The notes beneath the pieces were generated by a model. That model made no database searches and was not told the DNA's origin. It saw nothing but the letters and a program-made list of their open reading frames with translations. Both the position numbers and the translations under genes were made by a program. Positions 1,598-36,774 of a DNA stretch of 64,000 bases are shown piece by piece. This stretch comes from Weeksellaceae bacterium (lineage in GTDB: Bacteria; Bacteroidota; Bacteroidia; Flavobacteriales; Weeksellaceae), in contig JAIBEX010000020.1 of the NCBI GenBank assembly GCA_019459455.1, positions 62,001 through 126,000 on the forward strand, written 5' to 3'. Each line of letters starts with the position of its first letter. Position 1 is the first letter of the stretch.

Positions 1598-4500
1598 GTA
1601 TATTAAATTTTAAGATTTGAATAAATTTTTGATTTTTTAATTCTACGCTGTAGTCGTATTTAAAATTAAAAAGAGAGCTCTCCGAAAGAGTATTTAGACA
1701 ATTTATTCCTTCATTGCTGGAGAATTCCTTTACAATATCCAGAAAAGAATTTTCAATCTTTACTTCCACATAATCAGTATCTGCTGAGAAAGTTAGATCG
1801 ATTGCTTTTGTATTATCTGCATAGAATTTTAAATTATTTAATATTTCCTCTAAAATAATTTTCTCAACATATTTTTGAGGAATATTTATAACGAAGTCAT
1901 TAATTACAACTGTGTTTGTATTTACATTGTTTGGCAAACTATTAAGACCAATAAATAATTTATCGCGAAATAGTTGAAACTGAGTTGTAGAGTTTCTAAA
2001 TAGATCTCGAAACTCATCACTTTCACTTCCGTATTTATCATCGATATACTCTATAAATTGAATTGCTGTATTAAAATTATCAATATCATTGCTTTTTTGT
2101 TCAATGTTGTTTACAAAATCTTCTAAAAATGAATATAGATTAATTAGAGAGGATTTTTTTCCGTCTATCTGATTGTAGTAAATCAGGTATGGGTATGGCG
2201 TGAAGAAATCCTCGTGGGATCTAAAGAATGAAATTATTGGATTAAGCAAAATGGTTTTTAAATTCCACCAGCTATCTTTTACCAAATTTAATTTTTCTTT
2301 ATCAGGGCTATTTCCTAACTTACTAGAGTCTTTGAGCTCTCGCAACGATGATATCATTATTGAAAAATTGATGCTGTACGCTTCTCTATTATCATGGTTT
2401 TTGGGCTGATCATTTTCCCAATAAACATCTTTAATTTTTTGCAGTTGAGATGGGAAATCTTGAGCTGTAGGCAAAGTATTCAGGAAGGAATAAAATCTTT
2501 TGAATTCCAATTTAGCTTTTGGCTTAATCTCTTCACTATTTATAAAATTTAATAATATTTCTTTTAAAAATAAAGAGCCTTGATTAGGCAATATATCACT
2601 TTTTGTAAGTGGGAAAAATTTCAACAATTTATACAATATATAGTTACTTGGATCCGTTTTTTTAAATGTGTGAGTTGCAAAATTTAGTAATATATCTAAT
2701 TTTTCGTTATCCAATTGTTTTAATTTGAAATGATTTGAATAAATAATAAAAAATAGATGTATTAAATCCCGCCTGTTTTTGGTCCAATCATAATATAACA
2801 TTTCTATATCCAGTTTTTTCTTCCCTTCTAAACCAAAGAATATAGAATCAATAAATTCTTCGATTTTTTCTTTAATGTCAGGCATGATATTAGAAATCCT
2901 TTCATAAATATAGGGTTCATACAAAAGGCAAATGCAAAGCAATTCAATATTCTTATATCTGTCTTTAGTTTTTTTTGTATCAGTCAAACTATATATAAAT
3001 TCATTGAAAAAAGAAAAATTTTCTCTATAAAATCTATACCCAATAACTTTTCCTATCTCATCTCGTAATAAAATGATTTCTTTTTTGGGGATCTTTCCAG
3101 TCACCCTAGCAGTGGGGAGATAGCGGTAATCTTCGTTGATATCATCCTTTGGAGTCAGTGTGCTTAAGATTAATTCAGAGATATTTCTTATACTTGAAGG
3201 TAAGTTCTGAAAGGTTAGGACTTTTTTTATCCAATTGATTTCTTCCGTAAATGGAGAGTTACCAAGGTAGAAGGTGGGGATATGCCAATGACTTGCGAAG
3301 TAAATATTGATTTCAATAGTATCACTAATTTTATCGTCATCAATTCTCATTTCCTTTATTCTCGAAAAAAACTCTCTTTTGTGGTCATTCACTCTTCCTA
3401 TCAAACTAACAACATCTATCTTTTTAGGCTTGAAATATGCTAGTTCGTTTACCATTTGAAGGATTGAATCGCCAGAACAAGAGCCATCATCAATTATAAG
3501 TATATTTTTCTTAGTTATGATTTTATCAAAAGAATCTGTAGTGTGTGGAAATTTCCATCCTTCATTTATATTAAATCTCTCTAGTTCAAATACCTTGACT
3601 GAATGATTATTTATTACCTTACTTTTAAATTTATTCCAATCAATACTCTCTATATCAGATCCCTTAGGATAAAATATATTAAGTTTGTCATCAACAGTTA
3701 TTTTATATTTAAGTGCTCCATTAAAAACAGTGCTAATCAATGATTTTGATGAATCGCTAGCAAATAAAATATTTTCTCGTCCTATTATATCTTGTAGTTT
3801 AAAGAAATAGGGATGGATAAGATTATTAAAAATTTTATAATTAATTAAAATGTCATCATCTTTTATGAAATCTAAAAACCCTCTATTATCATTTGCAAAA
3901 ATTATTGATTTTTTTAATGTAAATGCATCAGAAAATACACTAGGTAAGTTGGTGTAAGGGTTTATTCTTATGACATGCCTCAGTTCTTCTCGATCAATTT
4001 CTTGCCTGATATATTTTTTAACAGTGTATTTACTAGCAAAATGGATTTTATCCTTATAGTTCTCTAAAAAATCCTTTGAATTTTTGAAATTGTCGTCAAT
4101 AGTGTTAATTAAAACGGCTATTTTATAGAGACTACTACCTTTCTCTTTAAGAATCAGTTCGACTCTTTTAGCTAAACTCCCCCCAGAAAGCACATCACCT
4201 ACTAGAATATATTTTTTTCCAGAAATTATATCCTTATCCTTAATAACTCGGTCAAAAGTAAGATAGCTATCAAGATAGGTGCATCTATCTTTGTCAATTT
4301 TAGCTTCTTTAATTAGTAAATTTAAGATACGATGACTACTAGATGTTATTGCAATAAAATATGTATCCTCGTCAATGGTTCCAAGCTTCTTGAATAAATT
4401 AGACACGAGAACATCGCAATCTGCTTCATTGTTTAACAATTCCAGTAACTGAACAAATTCCTTTTGATAGTAGTTGCCATTACAATAATACAATCCTTCA

Positions 4501-31317: not shown

Positions 31318-32442
31318 TTAATTGGTTTTATGGTAGCGGAGAACTGCCCATGAAATGAAAACGATTCCCATCAGTGAGATGACCCCAAAGTGAGGGAGCA
31401 AATCCGTAAAACCACTGTTTTTTAAGATGATTAACCGCATCGCATCCACCCCGTACGTCACAGGATTGGCGTAGGCTATGTATTTTGCCCAGTCTGTCAT
31501 GCTTTCTACCGGAGTGAATAGTCCGCTCATCAGGATGAAGATCATCATAAAGAAAAACACGACAAACATGGCCTGCTGCTGCGTTTCGCTGTAAACCGAA
31601 ACCAGGAGTCCCATTCCCAAAAGCGTAATCAGATACACCGAGACGAAACTGTATAGCAGGAACAGACTTCCCTGCATTTTGATATCGTAAATAAAGATGG
31701 TGACCAGAAGGCCAATTGTAAATGCCACCATAGCCAAAATCCAGAAAGGAATAAGTTTTCCGAGGATGAAATCCCGTTTTTTAATGGGTGAAACGTTAAT
31801 TTGCTCAATCGTTCCAATTTCTTTTTCAGATACAATGTTCATTGCCGTAAGATAACCGCCGATCAGGGTGATGAGAAAGGCGAGGATACCCGGAACAAGC
31901 GCTAAACGGTAATTGTATCCTTCGTTGAACCAGAATTTCGGAACGATTTCAAATGCTGGTTCCTGGATTGCGGTCTCAAGCTCAGGAGACATCCTGATCT
32001 GAATCTGACTGTTAAAATCCTGGAGAATCTGGGCGAGGTAGGTGGCAGAAAGACCTGCCTTGGTACCGTTAATGGCGTTGATGGCAAGGAGAACTTTACC
32101 CCGGTTTTCACGCACGAGGTTTTTTTCAAAGCTGTTCGGAATTTCGATAATCAAGTCCACCTTTTCTTCCTCCACGGCAGCGTACGCTTCCGGATAGTTG
32201 GCTCCGTAATGCTGGATTTTAAAGTAACCCGATGCAGTGATCTTTCGGATCAGTTCGCGGGAATATGTGGATTTATCATGGTCCACCACCGCAATTTTTA
32301 CCTCTTTTATTTCGTAGCTGGCCGCAAGGGGCAACACCACAAGCTGTACCACCGGCATTACGAATATGACGGCCAGGATGGCTTTGGTCCTGAAGATCTG
32401 CAGGAATTCTTTCCTGATTAATATGCCGAGTGTTCTGAACAT
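31318..32442 (-). CDS. ABC-2 type permease (YbhR/YhhJ-like)
   Basis: A 374-residue permease with one N-terminal membrane segment (AILAVIFVMPVVQLVVLPLA), a large periplasmic domain (about 45-180, EVKIAVVDHDKSTYSRELIR) and five more segments with the ABC-2 motif NIVSEKEIGTIEQINVSPI. Paralogous to the next permease; together they form the heterodimeric channel of a drug- or lipid-type exporter in the YbhFSR style. 44 bp separate the two permease genes. Confidence 0.9.
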   Translation of the reverse strand: MFRTLGILIRKEFLQIFRTKAILAVIFVMPVVQLVVLPLAASYEIKEVKIAVVDHDKSTYSRELIRKITASGYFKIQHYGANYPEAYAAVEEEKVDLIIEIPNSFEKNLVRENRGKVLLAINAINGTKAGLSATYLAQILQDFNSQIQIRMSPELETAIQEPAFEIVPKFWFNEGYNYRLALVPGILAFLITLIGGYLTAMNIVSEKEIGTIEQINVSPIKKRDFILGKLIPFWILAMVAFTIGLLVTIFIYDIKMQGSLFLLYSFVSVYLITLLGMGLLVSVYSETQQQAMFVVFFFMMIFILMSGLFTPVESMTDWAKYIAYANPVTYGVDAMRLIILKNSGFTDLLPHFGVISLMGIVFISWAVLRYHKTN

Positions 32443-32486: not shown

Positions 32487-33587
32487 TCATTCCAGTCTGA
32501 TCTTAAATTTTTTCATCGCCAGTACAAAAAGGACGACCATCATGCCAAGCAATACGAGGACGTGTTTCCAGATGACTTCCAGTCCTACTCCTTTGATCAT
32601 GATGTTTTTCACAATTTCGTAATACCATTTGGAGGGAATTAAATTGGCTACGGCCTGCAGCGGGATGGGCATATTTTCAATGGGAAACATAAAACCGCTC
32701 AGCATCACCGTGGGAAGCATGGTGCCAATGAGCGAAATCAGCATGGCACTCTGCTGTGTATCTGTTAAAATTGAGATTAAAATTCCCAGCAGCAGATTGG
32801 TGATGATGAAAATAATACTCACCGAGAACAGCAGCATCAGATTCCCTTTAATAGGAAGATCCAGTAAAGTCACGCTCAGCAGGATGATGGATATGAGTAT
32901 AAGGACCGACAGAATAAAATACGGAATTGCTTTCGCCAGAATGATGATCCAGGGTTTCATTGGTGAAACGAGCAGCACCTCCATGGTTCCGGTTTCTTTT
33001 TCCCGAACGATGGCAATGGCAGTCATCAGGACGCATAGAATGAGCAGGATTAGCGCCATTACACCCGGAACAAAATTGGGTGCGCCTTTCAGTTGCGGAT
33101 TGTACAGCATTCGGATTTCCGGCTGCACACCGGCAAGAACGGGGCTGGCTTTTTGTCCGTAAAAGTCCAGGAGAATATTGGACATGAAATTATTGATCTG
33201 ATTGGCCAGGTTGATGTCGGTTCCGTCGGTAATCAGCTGGAGTTGCGCCTTTTTTCCGGCCGACAGGTTTTCTGAAAAGCGGGCTGGTATGACCACGATC
33301 ATCCTGATTTTTCCGGCTTGGAAGGCATCTTCCGCTTCGTGGATGGCTGTTAGATTTTTGTCAACGTCAAAATACGGATTGGCATGGATTTTCGAAATAA
33401 GTTCAATTGAATTGGGGGATTTGTCCTGATCCAGAACTCCGATTCCGGTATTCTTAACTTCCGTACTCAGGGCAAAACCGAAGAGCAGAACCTGCACCAC
33501 CGGCATTCCGAAAAGGATAAGCAAAGTCCTTCTGTCACGCAGCACATGATAAAATTCTTTCCGTACAAAGGTGATGAGCTGTTTCAT
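32487..33587 (-). CDS. ABC-2 type permease (YbhS-like)
   Basis: A 366-residue permease of the same family: N-terminal segment LLILFGMPVVQVLLFGFAL, periplasmic domain starting NTGIGVLDQDKSPNSIELI, then five segments including AIVREKETGTMEVLLVSPM. It pairs with the downstream permease. Upstream it is separated from the ATPase genes by the inserted four-helix-bundle gene. Confidence 0.9.
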   Translation of the reverse strand: MKQLITFVRKEFYHVLRDRRTLLILFGMPVVQVLLFGFALSTEVKNTGIGVLDQDKSPNSIELISKIHANPYFDVDKNLTAIHEAEDAFQAGKIRMIVVIPARFSENLSAGKKAQLQLITDGTDINLANQINNFMSNILLDFYGQKASPVLAGVQPEIRMLYNPQLKGAPNFVPGVMALILLILCVLMTAIAIVREKETGTMEVLLVSPMKPWIIILAKAIPYFILSVLILISIILLSVTLLDLPIKGNLMLLFSVSIIFIITNLLLGILISILTDTQQSAMLISLIGTMLPTVMLSGFMFPIENMPIPLQAVANLIPSKWYYEIVKNIMIKGVGLEVIWKHVLVLLGMMVVLFVLAMKKFKIRLE

Positions 33588-33591
33588 TTTT

Positions 33592-34070
33592 TAGTGGAGG
33601 GTGGACGGTTGATAATTGACAGGTGATGGTTTGGGGCGGGTAGTGGCAGCTATTTTCGGCCGAGGTTCTCTTTGGTGGTCTTAACGATTTTGATGAGCAT
33701 TTTCAAAACTTCGGTACAGTCGGAATTTATTGAATTATACTCCGTCTCATTCATATATCCTCCTCTGTAGAGCAGCAGCAGCCAGTAATCGGTTTCATTT
33801 GCTTCTTTTAAGGCGATGTTCATTTTATTAAGAAAATCTGCTTTTGACTGCGCGTGTTCCGCCTCACGGATTAATGCTCCTACCGCTGTACCACTGCGCA
33901 GCAGTTGTTTGGAAAGGATGTATTCATGCTTTTCACCTGTCAGCAATTTGTACAGATTAATCAGCCTTATTGAGAAAACAATTGATTTCTCCGCCACCGT
34001 TTTATTGTCCATGATTACTATTTTTTAATTACCTTTTCATTCTCAACTTTCAACCCTCCACTCTCCATTA
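33592..34070. mobile_element. IVS-like insertion: four-helix-bundle gene with flanking inverted repeats
   Basis: The gene at 33650-34012 is bracketed by GGAGGGTGGACGGTTGA (33596-33612) and TCAACCCTCCACTCTCC (34050-34066), which are inverted repeats matching at 15 of 17 positions, with weaker pairing for a few more bases outwards. This interrupts an otherwise tight exporter operon. Inference: a mobile or relic element related to 23S rRNA intervening sequences. Confidence 0.45.
33650..34012 (-). CDS. Four-helix-bundle protein (23S rRNA IVS-type family)
   Basis: A 120-residue helical protein of the family first found in 23S rRNA intervening sequences (TIGR02436-like; also related to bAvd of diversity-generating retroelements). 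Typical features: KSIVFSIRLINLYK, LSKQLLRSGTAVGALIREAEHAQSKADFLNKMNIALKEANETDYWL. No catalytic residues. Here it sits not in rRNA but between ABC transporter genes on the same strand. Its function is unknown; the neighbouring genes do not suggest a role in export. Confidence 0.88.
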   Translation of the reverse strand: MDNKTVAEKSIVFSIRLINLYKLLTGEKHEYILSKQLLRSGTAVGALIREAEHAQSKADFLNKMNIALKEANETDYWLLLLYRGGYMNETEYNSINSDCTEVLKMLIKIVKTTKENLGRK

Positions 34071-34820
34071 TTCCGTTCTTTTCGCTCCCCGCGCCAGTTC
34101 ATAAAAAACACCATCCATATCTTTGGTAATGAACTGTTTTTTCAGATTTGAAGGGGTGTCCAGCGCTGCAATTTTACCGTCGACCATAATGGAAACGCGG
34201 TCGCAATATTCAGCTTCGTCCATATAATGTGTGGTGACGAAAACCGTGATTCCCCTTTCCGATGCGTCGTAAATCATGCTCCAGAACTGCCGCCGGGTTA
34301 GAGGATCCACTCCGCCCGTTGGCTCATCCAGAAATACAATCTGTGGGTCGTGAAAGATGGCCACCGAAAACGCCAGTTTCTGTTTCCAGCCCAAAGGGAG
34401 TTCGGAGACGAGTTTGTTTTGCTCATTCTGAAGTCCCAGTTTTTCAATAAGTTCCGCACCTTTTCTTTTCAGTTCCGGTCTTGGAATCCTGTAAATGCCG
34501 CCAAAGAATGCCAGGTTTTCTTTCACCGTCAGGTTTCCGTAAAGGGAAAATTTCTGGCTCATATATCCAATGTTTTTTTTGATGTTTTCGGCTTCTTTAT
34601 ATACATCGAAGCCCGCTACGGTTGCATGTCCCGAGGTTGGAGCTGAAAGTCCGCAGAAGATGCGCATGGCAGTGGTTTTGCCGGCACCATTGGCACCTAG
34701 GAAACCAAAGATTTCCCCTTTTTTCACCTCAAAACTGATGTGGTCCACCGCGGTGAAATCTCCAAAAAGCTTAGTGATATTTTCAGCTTTAATAGCAATA
34801 TAAGGCAGTTGCATGTTCAT
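34068..34820 (-). CDS. ABC transporter ATPase with atypical signature motif
   Basis: A 250-residue nucleotide-binding subunit: Walker A GANGAGKTT, Q-loop in GYMSQKFSLY, Walker B IVFLDEPTGGVDP and His switch TTHYMDEA. The signature LSGGQ is replaced by ELPLGWKQKL, as in one half of YbhF-type ATPases, so it may form asymmetric ATP sites with its partner. The start is put at ATG 34820, one base after the upstream ATPase gene's stop; the longer frame from 34880 would overlap that gene by about 60 bp. Confidence 0.92.
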   Translation of the reverse strand: MNMQLPYIAIKAENITKLFGDFTAVDHISFEVKKGEIFGFLGANGAGKTTAMRIFCGLSAPTSGHATVAGFDVYKEAENIKKNIGYMSQKFSLYGNLTVKENLAFFGGIYRIPRPELKRKGAELIEKLGLQNEQNKLVSELPLGWKQKLAFSVAIFHDPQIVFLDEPTGGVDPLTRRQFWSMIYDASERGITVFVTTHYMDEAEYCDRVSIMVDGKIAALDTPSNLKKQFITKDMDGVFYELARGAKRTE

Positions 34821-34821
34821 T

Positions 34822-35769
34822 TCAATGTTTCTTTCTTTCCTGTTCACGGTGGGAGAGCAACTGTATAAACCGGTCTTCAATACTGGCCCTCACAGGTTTT
34901 ATTTCAATGTTTTTAAAGCCCTGAGCTGCTAAATAGGCTGATGTATTTTCTATGGAAAAATCACTTTGCTGATCTGCCGTCAGGTGAACAGACTCACCAA
35001 AAGCATAGGCATTTTTTTTCATATCATATTCCAGCAGTGCAGTCAGCACCGCGGATGTTCGGCCGGCCTTCACTTCAAACAGCCGGTCCGGAAAAGCGAG
35101 GCTGATGTTCTCCGGCGTGTCCGTGGAAAGGATTTTTCCATCCTGCATCAGTGCAATACGGTCACACAGGGCGGCTTCATCCATATAAGGAGTGGCTACA
35201 ACCATGGTAATGCCCTGGGTTTTCAGTCGCTTGAGCATTTCCCAGAATTCTTTTCGTGAGACGGGATCTACTCCGGTGGTGGGTTCGTCCAGGAACAGCA
35301 CTTTTGGTTTGTGGATGAGGGCACAGCTCAACGCCAGTTTTTGTTTCATTCCTCCGGAAAGCTGGCCCGCTCTCCGCTTTTTGAAGGGTTCTATCTGTAC
35401 ATAGATGTCTTTGATTAAGTCATAGTTTTCCCGGATGGTGGTGTTAAAAACGCTTGCGAAAAATTCAAGGTTTTCCTCTACGGACAAATCCTGATAGAGC
35501 GAAAATTTTCCCGGCATATAACCCAGAATCTTCCGGATTTTTTTAAAATCTTTTACTACATCAAGACCTTCAATGCTTGCAGCGCCGCTGTCGGGAAGAA
35601 GAACCGTGGTCAGTATCCTGAAAATTGATGTTTTTCCGGCACCATCAGGACCTATCAGTCCGAAAATTTCACCAGGGCTGACATCGAAACTCACCTCATC
35701 TACAGCCAGGATTTTGTCCTTTCCTTTGCCGTACGTTTTGGTGAGATTGTTGACTTTGATTGATTTCAT
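34822..35769 (-). CDS. ABC transporter ATPase (canonical partner)
   Basis: A 315-residue ATPase: Walker A GPDGAGKTS (40-48), Q-loop GYMPGKFSLY, canonical signature LSGGMKQKL, Walker B VLFLDEPTTGVDP, and a C-terminal extension of about 85 residues after the His-switch-region MDEAALCDR. Together with the downstream ATPase it corresponds to the two halves that are fused in E. coli YbhF. It exports an unidentified substrate through the two permeases. Confidence 0.92.
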   Translation of the reverse strand: MKSIKVNNLTKTYGKGKDKILAVDEVSFDVSPGEIFGLIGPDGAGKTSIFRILTTVLLPDSGAASIEGLDVVKDFKKIRKILGYMPGKFSLYQDLSVEENLEFFASVFNTTIRENYDLIKDIYVQIEPFKKRRAGQLSGGMKQKLALSCALIHKPKVLFLDEPTTGVDPVSRKEFWEMLKRLKTQGITMVVATPYMDEAALCDRIALMQDGKILSTDTPENISLAFPDRLFEVKAGRTSAVLTALLEYDMKKNAYAFGESVHLTADQQSDFSIENTSAYLAAQGFKNIEIKPVRASIEDRFIQLLSHREQERKKH

Positions 35770-35802: not shown

Positions 35803-36774
35803 TTAAAACTTCACATCGCCATACATTCCTATTTTCAGGTAGCCGTCGTTTTTCACACGGATTTTTGCGGCGTAAACCAGGTTGGCTCTTTCATTTTTGG
35901 TCTGAATGGTTTTTGGGGTAAATTCTGCTTTGGAACTGATCCAGTAAACCGTTCCGGGAAGTTCTTTTGTTTTTCCGTCGCCTGCGTCAATTAAAATCCT
36001 GACCTGCTGTCCGGGTTTAACCTGTGCGAGCTGGTCGCCGGTAAGATAGGTTTTCAAAGTCATCACGGCCATACTTGCAACTTTGAATATCGGTTTTCCC
36101 GTGGTCGCAAACTCGCCCTCGTTCGCATATTTGGTTAAAACCATGCCTGAAATCGGACTTTCAATACTGTTGTTTTTTAACTGTTCGTTAAATTGCTGCA
36201 CGCGCTTTTCAGCCGGCTTCCTTTCGCTTAAAACCGCCCTGTTCTGTAGGGAAGTGTTTTCCCGTGCCGCTGCAATTTGCTGATTTACGGTATTTAACTG
36301 GGTTTGCGCCGATGTTATTTGTCTTTGAATGACGTGCACCTGGCCATTTGCATCATCCAGTTGTTTTCGGGTCGCTGCATCAGCACGAACGAGGTTGGCG
36401 GTACGGTTGCGTTCCCGGACAGCGTTCTGAAGCTGTTCCTGCAGGAGGGCTACCTGTGCCCGCTGCGACTGATGTTGAGACTTCAAAACCTGCACTTGCG
36501 GTGCTGCAGAGCCGGTTTTCTGTTCTATGGCTTCGATGGTGGCAATTGCCTGTTCCTTTTGAAGCTCCACGCCGGCGGGATCAATGGTTCCTACTTTTTG
36601 ATTTTGGGCAAGCTGCTGACCTTCTTCCACTTTCAGTTCCAGTATGTTGCCGGTGGCTTTGGCGGTCACCATCACTTCATCAGCTTCAAAAGTTCCCGAG
36701 GCGTCGTAATCCTGATTCGGGTCATTGCAGGCAAGAACAGCAAATGCGGTGAGAAAGAAAATGTATTTTTTCAT
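35803..36774 (-). CDS. HlyD-family periplasmic adaptor lipoprotein
   Basis: A 323-residue membrane fusion protein with a lipoprotein signal (FLTAFAVLACND, Cys16). Biotinyl-lipoyl-like halves (EVMVTAKATGNILELKVEEGQ and IESPISGMVLTKYANEGEF) flank a long coiled coil (about 75-200), followed by a beta-barrel (VKPGQQVRILIDAGDGK). It links the ABC permeases to the TolC-like channel encoded by the preceding gene. Confidence 0.92.
   Translation of the reverse strand: MKKYIFFLTAFAVLACNDPNQDYDASGTFEADEVMVTAKATGNILELKVEEGQQLAQNQKVGTIDPAGVELQKEQAIATIEAIEQKTGSAAPQVQVLKSQHQSQRAQVALLQEQLQNAVRERNRTANLVRADAATRKQLDDANGQVHVIQRQITSAQTQLNTVNQQIAAARENTSLQNRAVLSERKPAEKRVQQFNEQLKNNSIESPISGMVLTKYANEGEFATTGKPIFKVASMAVMTLKTYLTGDQLAQVKPGQQVRILIDAGDGKTKELPGTVYWISSKAEFTPKTIQTKNERANLVYAAKIRVKNDGYLKIGMYGDVKF

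Follow-up and report, generated by a model that had tools for sequence, protein, structure and literature searches.

A small element made of an intervening-sequence-protein gene and inverted heptad arrays comes and goes between bacterial operon genes

Genes of the 23S rRNA-intervening-sequence-protein (IVP) family, mostly enclosed by inverted arrays of short tandem repeats, form small elements whose presence between ordinary operon genes comes and goes; this class of element is widespread in bacteria and little described. We studied one such element, about 480 nt long, in a 64,000-nucleotide stretch of a Weeksellaceae bacterium contig (JAIBEX010000020.1, positions 62,001 to 126,000; hereafter the window), and compared it with copies in its own and other genomes. 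A sequence-only reading of the locus had proposed a small mobile unit carrying a hairpin; overall, we confirm its observation and support its interpretation in part.

The window IVP gene (33650..34012, minus strand) encodes a 120-residue, full-length member of the PF05635/TIGR02436 four-helix-bundle family. Residues 5-107 match PF05635 (23S_rRNA_IVP) in Pfam with an E-value of 2.3e-27 (95.7 bits against a cut-off of 33.8), and the protein matches TIGR02436 (four helix bundle protein) with an E-value of 1.4e-30 (105.7 against a cut-off of 24), confirming the family that had been read from the letters. Solved structures related to it are 2rld and 2gsc, and comparison with two Kaistella homologues (L135, L136) gives pN of 0.10-0.11 and pS of 0.76-0.86, with dS saturated. 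The surrounding exporter operon contains TetR, OEP and HlyD genes, two ATPases and two permeases. Upstream of the IVP gene, all on the minus strand, lie genes for a HlyD-type membrane fusion protein (35803..36774; PF13437), ABC ATPase 1 (34822..35769; PF00005, E 5.3e-28) and ABC ATPase 2 (34068..34880; PF00005, ABC_tran, E 7.2e-29); downstream on the same strand lie ABC-2 permease 1 (32487..33587; PF12698, ABC2_membrane_3, E 9.3e-55) and ABC-2 permease 2 (31318..32442; PF12698, E 3.8e-51). The Pfam matches bear out the placement originally given between ABC ATPase and permease genes, and this copy, with ABC transporter genes on both sides, is located outside 23S rRNA.

Each arm of the element is an array of heptads, a feature absent from the earlier reading. 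In operon sense, the 5' arm (34028..34069, minus strand) consists of the heptads AATGGAG AGTGGAG GGTTGAA AGTTGAG at 34069-34042 and a degenerate extension to 34028. The 3' arm (33593..33627, minus strand) reads, on the plus strand, AGTGGAG GGTGGAC GGTTGAT AATTGAC at 33593-33620 and then AGGTGAT. The two arms are inward-pointing inverted arrays of four heptads each, with the unit RRTKGAN. The repeat fits both intergenic gaps as had been described: the ATPase stop codon (34070-34068) runs into the first heptad of the 5' arm, and the permease ATG lies 5 nt beyond the end of the 3' arm. In operon sense, the junction reads GAATAA-TGGAGAGTGGAGGGTTGAAAGTTGAG...ATG[IVP]TAG...TCAATTATCAACCGTCCACCCTCCACT-AAAAAATGAAAC. 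The inverted repeat, first put at 15/17, is real: its arm alignment score of 15.5 exceeds the highest value, 12.0, reached when the letters of the flanks were shuffled 60 times (L003). Its length was understated, since it spans 35 nt at 77% (33593-33627 with 34028-34062). Flank shuffles, cross-copy controls and a 417-kb scan rule out a chance origin for it.

The same architecture recurs in other copies of the family. PF05635 is present in at least 40 of 59 genomes, the window's own included. Sixty stretches were taken around the PF05635 matches listed; 94 loci gave 107 domain hits, and 101 copies from the window genome and related genomes were kept after four scoring below 60, one with too short a flank and one duplicate had been dropped. 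Subsets served for periodicity, folding and gap statistics (84 copies scoring at least 12.5), site clustering (103), the arm-protein comparison (83) and an IVP tree (96). For 84 of the 101 copies the inverted arms outscored the 95th percentile of cross-copy pairs, and for 57 the 99th, while 17 fell short of the lower cut; own arms had a median score of 17 against 9 for cross-copy arms, and the direct-orientation control exceeded the 99th percentile in 10 of 101. Of the 84 copies, 46 had 7 as their best arm period and 26 had 8. The IVP gene was co-directional with both neighbours in 92 of 101 copies (46 of 54 at one copy per site), the 5' arm lay a median of 1 nt from the upstream stop (IQR -5 to 6), and the next ATG followed the 3' arm at a median of 13 nt (IQR 5 to 27.5). 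Base composition of the arms is skewed, the 5' arm having 6.7% C and 23.5% G (2.9% and 26.6% in the window lineage) and the 3' arm being poor in G, so that self-pairing within one arm is hindered, which may be what the skew serves.

The genes identified beside IVPs are housekeeping genes. Pfam confirmed the neighbours at five sites and SufB; confirmed sites include the fad site (3HCDH/ECH, thiolase and acyl-CoA dehydrogenase, in that order), carA-carB, a sugar-nucleotide dehydratase-nucleotidyl transferase pair and Cpn10-Cpn60 (groES-groEL). At the carAB site (site 2; L001, L020, L026, L028, L056, L060.1) the 5' arm begins 34-45 nt before the carA stop in six of seven copies, so that CarA terminates in amino acids encoded by the repeat, and in L020 the opening codons of the IVP frame take in the carA stop. 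In the fad operons of G002, G001, G008, G029 and G021 (L058, L061, L012, L075, L017/L113) the thiolase gene is flanked by two different IVP elements, whose arm words differ in all four operons read for both pairs (L058, L061, L075, L017/L113). Heptad arms, scored by eye with no shuffled control, were also present in all six plasmid IVPs examined among 26 records (four cyanobacterial, one Treponema, one Bernardetia); of two IVP-bearing phage contigs, the one examined showed no arms beyond chance. On a Planktothrix plasmid (L220, 2501-2860) a heptad-armed IVP gene has drmD (DISARM) on one side and pglX of BREX type on the other, possibly another false "defence gene" by association. On an Anabaena cylindrica plasmid (L217, 2498-2845) an antisense IVP gene with A-rich heptad arms lies between cas2 and cas1, and placements of this type may explain why PMC10910872 reports 23S IVP as associated with CRISPR adaptation modules.

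Occupancy of these junctions turns over. The sequence-only reading had proposed a search for empty sites in relatives, and the exporter junction indeed lacks an IVP in all eight readable relatives (L036-L039, L041-L044), a ninth (L040) having no ATPase in view. By eye, empty exporter junctions in L038, L039, L043 and L044 hold gene-less palindromes or other heptads; the ATPase-permease gap of L039 (G014) holds a CGTCATTGCGA...GCAATGACG palindromic repeat, indicating that this gap draws several kinds of short palindromes. The junction between ATPase 2 and the permease is filled at ten loci (Kaistella L135 and L136; L138, L140, L142, L144, L155, L171, L173, L199), and in L156 an IVP gene lies before the permease, with another gene between it and the ATPase. 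In Parapedobacter defluvii (L197:3001-3354) the IVP gene is antisense in this junction, and the array on its ATPase side (about 3355-3490) has expanded to roughly 20 near-identical AATTGAT heptads. An alternative site, the junction before ATPase 1, is occupied at six loci (L137, L141, L146, L149, L165, L167).

On a tree of the exporter permease, occupancy of the junction (state A) needs 8 changes in both row sets that we used, and supported branches force 7 of them in the 27-row tree (L197 omitted, L156 filled, L040 empty) or 6 in the 28-row tree (L197 and L156 filled, L040 uncounted). State A clusters no more than shuffled labels, and two empty sites, G026 and G028, are among the rows closest to the window. 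The rows were sampled non-randomly, filled ones via IVP similarity and empty ones via permease similarity, and gains and losses are indistinguishable from these tests alone. At carA-carB, 20 loci with carB in view comprise nine with an IVP-sized insert (374-638 nt), eight with at most 63 nt and three others. On the IVP tree, copies from one site group together more than chance would give (21 changes against a shuffled mean of 44.1), and several insertions are old and common to multiple genera; unrelated IVP lineages share each of sites 2, 3 and 4, and one lineage can occupy several sites. Site clustering together with unrelated lineages per site suggests that copies are inherited for long periods and also seem to reach favoured junctions repeatedly. 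Filled and empty exporter junctions, which are short and diverged, show by eye no clear target duplication. Empty sites, site sharing and the permease-tree changes uphold the earlier proposal that a small unit of gene and arms inserts in protein operons. The contrary outcome named at the time, a gene fixed at this place in all relatives with unconserved repeats, is not what we find: occupancy of the site is patchy, and conservation extends to the architecture of the repeats though not to the sequence of the arms.

We compared arms and proteins across copies, and by this sequence-level measure the arm words track the lineage of the IVP protein and not the site. For pairs from different genomes and sites, proteins below 50% identity have an arm similarity of 0.21-0.23, rising to 0.29 at 50-60% and 0.49 at 60% or more (n=26, a class that includes some same-site pairs because two "different site" copies, L027 near a contig end and L064, are probably at sites 2 and 1). 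In a Mantel test of arms against protein, 0 of 2000 permutations were as high as the observed value; r itself is only 0.18 by alignment or 0.12 by 4-mers, since arms begin to resemble each other only once the proteins exceed about 50-60% identity. Pairs of unrelated IVPs at one site do not rise above the baseline (0.22, n=33). That the arms derive from the site is ruled out, since same-site copies of unrelated IVPs carry unrelated words. The "same inverted repeats" that had been expected in other copies are accordingly not a general feature, arm words varying by IVP lineage. The gene and its arms keep company from site to site and from one phylum to another.

The lineage of the window IVP is represented here by 80 loci, of which 78 were analysed (two lie near contig ends), 71 were scoreable and 56 were used for position N; its records come from Bacteroidota, Proteobacteria, Acidobacteria, Calditrichota, Lentisphaeria, Opitutales, Desulfobacterales and Oscillospiraceae. 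All 71 scoreable loci have period-7 arms, with RRTKGA pointing inward in 59, outward in 2 and absent from 10, where other words stand. In this cross-phylum set, whose copies share one word, the own score exceeds the 95th percentile of cross pairs in only 30 of 78 (medians of 22.5 for own arms and 12.5 for cross pairs), and only 49 of 78 copies are co-directional with both neighbours. Heptad positions A, T, G and A are each more than 90% one letter across phyla, partly by construction because the phase was set by that core; the four conserved positions would suit a recognition site. The free position N is equal at a frequency of 0.78 between own arms and 0.47 between different elements (56 elements), indicating that the two arms evolve together, via pairing selection or arm-to-arm conversion. 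For the protein, dN/dS estimates of 0.05-0.34 in eight of nine computable pairs (14 tried; the ninth gave 0.57 on few changes) show purifying selection at the level of inferred substitutions.

Within the window's own 2.59-Mb genome, three consecutive RRTKGAN units occur four times, always within the window element (5'-arm matches include contig 96043-96062 and 96050-96069), and the reversed control pattern occurs once. In 417 kb (the window and 353 kb more) we found 14 inverted repeats above threshold, against 4 in first-order random sequence; only three have period-7 arms, and these flank the three IVP genes present there. Generic heptad hairpins are ruled out for this genome, where such hairpins occur only at IVPs; other genomes have gene-less arrays. 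Among its five PF05635 matches, four are IVPs with arms whose words differ: CAAGANN (carAB), a AGACGGATAGA type, RRTKGAN (window) and a GAANTAC type. L005 (C20:215574) encodes a truncated IVP of 81 aa with weak arms (score 11.5), lies by eye beside a NosD-like gene and, downstream, an ABC ATPase gene, and is apparently a decaying copy. Three consecutive CAAGANN units, counted in 59 genomes, had matches in 16, the own genome included; two of its four matches lie in the carAB element and the other two are unplaced, a count that does not support exclusivity to the IVP.

Heptad arrays without the gene are common elsewhere. Three consecutive RRTKGAN units occur in 63 of 149 genomes of the class, the own genome included, often far above the reversed control, which is likewise elevated in the richest genomes. 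Among array loci sampled from other genomes at one per genome, only 2 of 25 had an IVP gene within 1.5 kb. At the genome level, a window-type IVP is present in 23 of 32 genomes with arrays (absent in 9), whereas only 7 of 40 array-less genomes have one (Fisher 3.8e-6, ignoring relatedness and genome size); the 32 were drawn from 62 other array-bearing genomes and nearly all have at least 4 matches, and the 40 were drawn from 86 array-less ones. Any PF05635 member is found in 16 of 16 array-rich genomes, a count with no matched control. L255 and L257 are heptad hairpins without a gene, the latter beginning right at a stop codon. Gene-less arrays may be derivatives served in trans, a reading that these observations fit. 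RRTKGAN-type arrays also lie inside ORFs (L254:1500-1528, L254:2033-2061, L260:1500-1528) that appear by eye to be restriction-helicase-like and methyltransferase-like; they add in-frame peptides such as NSQLSTVNYQL and resemble in-frame palindromic insertions.

We next consider RNA pairing. In the predicted fold of the window junction RNA, the arms pair and the ORF is looped out in both the MFE and centroid structures (z -2.37; 1 of 100 shuffles as good), and shuffling the 3' arm of this copy leaves 0.71 still paired against 0.86. Across elements, at least half of the 5' arm was paired with the 3' arm in 65 of 84, compared with 6 of 84 after shuffling of the 3' arm. Folding showed no preference for the sense strand (antisense pairs in 68 of 84, sense in 65), and arm mismatches in the 84 elements carried no sense-strand G:U wobble signature (81 against 101, p 0.16). 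Without G:U bias and with equal antisense pairing, selection for RNA pairing is not demonstrated and DNA-level explanations remain; arm-to-arm conversion could keep the arms alike.

We think it probable, if well short of certain, that these elements are IVS-like mobile units, each a gene with arrays of a lineage-specific 7-nt word, that sit at operon stop-start junctions with arms that fold the IVP frame out. Insertion would be mostly co-directional at such junctions, and the arms would pair in the polycistronic mRNA and loop out the IVP frame. Loop-out would bring the upstream stop and downstream start close again, making an insertion nearly harmless by the same logic as the stem of an rRNA IVS, perhaps with RNase III cleavage. 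The IVP would be translated from the mRNA of its host operon, and this would account for the co-directional majority of copies. The protein probably recognises its own heptads, and binding to its own arrays may help to copy, protect or move the element. The mode of transposition, the processing of the RNA and the binding of heptads are what we infer here, whereas turnover and gene-arm linkage were read from the copies themselves.

An alternative that we consider unlikely is that the IVP is a beneficial operon gene, an RNA-binding regulator whose arms form an operator tuning the downstream gene, with patchiness due to loss. Purifying selection on the protein would agree with this, as would the recurrence of one IVP lineage in the exporter operon across Bacteroidota at two junctions, the sites common to several genera and the site-clustered IVP tree (21 changes against 44.1). 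However, the neighbours are functionally unrelated between sites (carAB, groESL, fad, suf, sugar-nucleotide genes), unrelated lineages with unrelated words occur at one site, L197 is antisense in the same exporter junction, and a single lineage spans phyla. The arms might instead be by-products without a role, produced by polymerase slippage and template switching at quasi-palindromes, with the IVP gene inserting into existing hairpins. The gene-less hairpins L255 and L257, the arrays inside ORFs (L254, L260) and arm mismatches without an RNA-wobble signature all point that way, as do the heptad tracts of Beggiatoaceae, cyanobacteria and Xanthomonas, in whose published descriptions (the passages on these tracts in PMC4679880 and PMC4692102) the IVP gene goes unmentioned. 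We nevertheless hold this account to be distinctly improbable, given that words track protein lineage and not site, that the own-genome word occurs only at the IVP with all three period-7 hairpins in 417 kb holding an IVP, and that four of seven heptad positions are more than 90% one letter (partly by construction).

The element could also move as RNA, with the IVP, like its relative Avd, guiding the hairpin RNA after its excision to a reverse transcriptase encoded elsewhere and acting in trans; we give this only a slim chance. It draws on the Avd-IVP kinship discussed in PMC10053308, on the 92 of 101 copies that are co-directional with transcription, and on the strand asymmetry of the arms (the C-poor, G-rich 5' arm at 6.7% C and 23.5% G, or 2.9% and 26.6% in the window lineage). 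Yet co-directionality is also expected from selection for host-operon expression, and reversed copies exist (L197, L217). Returning to the IVS-like mobile unit, a joint reading that we advance tentatively, at rather less than even chances, is that IVPs form a cross-phylum superfamily of operon elements, each lineage reading its own heptad. The rRNA IVSs would then be members settled in rRNA, many tracts of cyanobacteria, Beggiatoaceae, Bacteroidota and Xanthomonas would be gene-less, non-autonomous derivatives, and the arms would make insertions near-neutral. For the IVP copies at groESL, carAB, suf and beside DISARM, a reading as pathway components should not be made without a test.

Heptanucleotide tandem repeats of cyanobacteria are known as STRRs. 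Published heptads include TAACTGA in Beggiatoaceae, GGGAATC in Xanthomonas and GGGGA(C/T)T in Nostoc, and Xanthomonas has about 70 convergent inverted heptad pairs per genome, close to a neighbouring ORF (PMC4679880, PMC4692102). Like the present arrays, these repeats lie in intergenic regions, but the passages describing them do so without an IVP gene, whereas here all six examined plasmid IVPs are heptad-armed by eye. For the spread of TAACTGA, PMC4679880 states in its discussion of that repeat that "no mechanism is evident", and the elements described here are a possible vehicle. Operon copies of the IVP gene have been sighted independently, their arms uncommented in the passages concerned: in UCYN-A4 contigs an IVP adjoins genes for an ATP-binding protein and HlyD (PMC11637426), and another copy lies between guanylate kinase and nicotinate-nucleotide adenylyltransferase genes (PMC5524665). 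One IVP gene has altered expression in biofilm (PMC5787105). Searches of the openly licensed PMC literature brought up no description of heptad-armed IVP genes within protein operons, though such searches may miss one.

Among other known systems, Avd of diversity-generating retroelements belongs to a homologous fold family, and PF05635 was the most common Pfam family in a survey of those retroelements (PMC10053308). The present elements also resemble MITEs and REP-type elements in being short and intergenic with inverted-repeat ends, and in having gene-less versions; empty sites and multiple insertion sites, by which DNA transposons and MITEs are recognised, are both found. Unlike those elements, they carry a conserved gene, their ends are lineage-varying tandem heptads in place of a fixed terminal sequence, and they come without an identified transposase partner.

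The closest comparison is with the IVSs of rRNA, which were described in 1990 and whose S23p protein has a role given as still unknown in the account of PMC4990558. A Xanthomonas relative of the IVP is reported as a pentamer (PMC4990558, PMC10053308). With the present elements, the question of that role becomes two direct ones, whether an IVP binds its own word and whether the arms pair in operon mRNA. The kinship with rRNA IVSs claimed by the sequence-only reading holds at the level of the protein family and extends, by the published Coxiella burnetii case, to the terminal stem and tandem heptamers. The Coxiella IVS is 428 nt long; its S23p ORF occupies the loop of a 28 bp terminal stem and is closely preceded by tandem heptamers (GACAGAT), and IVS distribution is sporadic (PMC4990558). 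The heptamer comparison is taken from that paper; our own analysis covers the copies in protein operons. Both kinds of element hold an IVP/S23p gene inside a terminal inverted-repeat stem, a mark by which rRNA IVSs are recognised and which the window element shows; tandem heptamers beside the ORF, reported for the one Coxiella IVS and not a general mark, are present in the window element as well. The Coxiella IVS differs in lying in helix 45 of 23S rRNA, from which RNase III cuts it out (PMC4990558), whereas the present copies lie between protein genes and carry heptad arrays on both sides.
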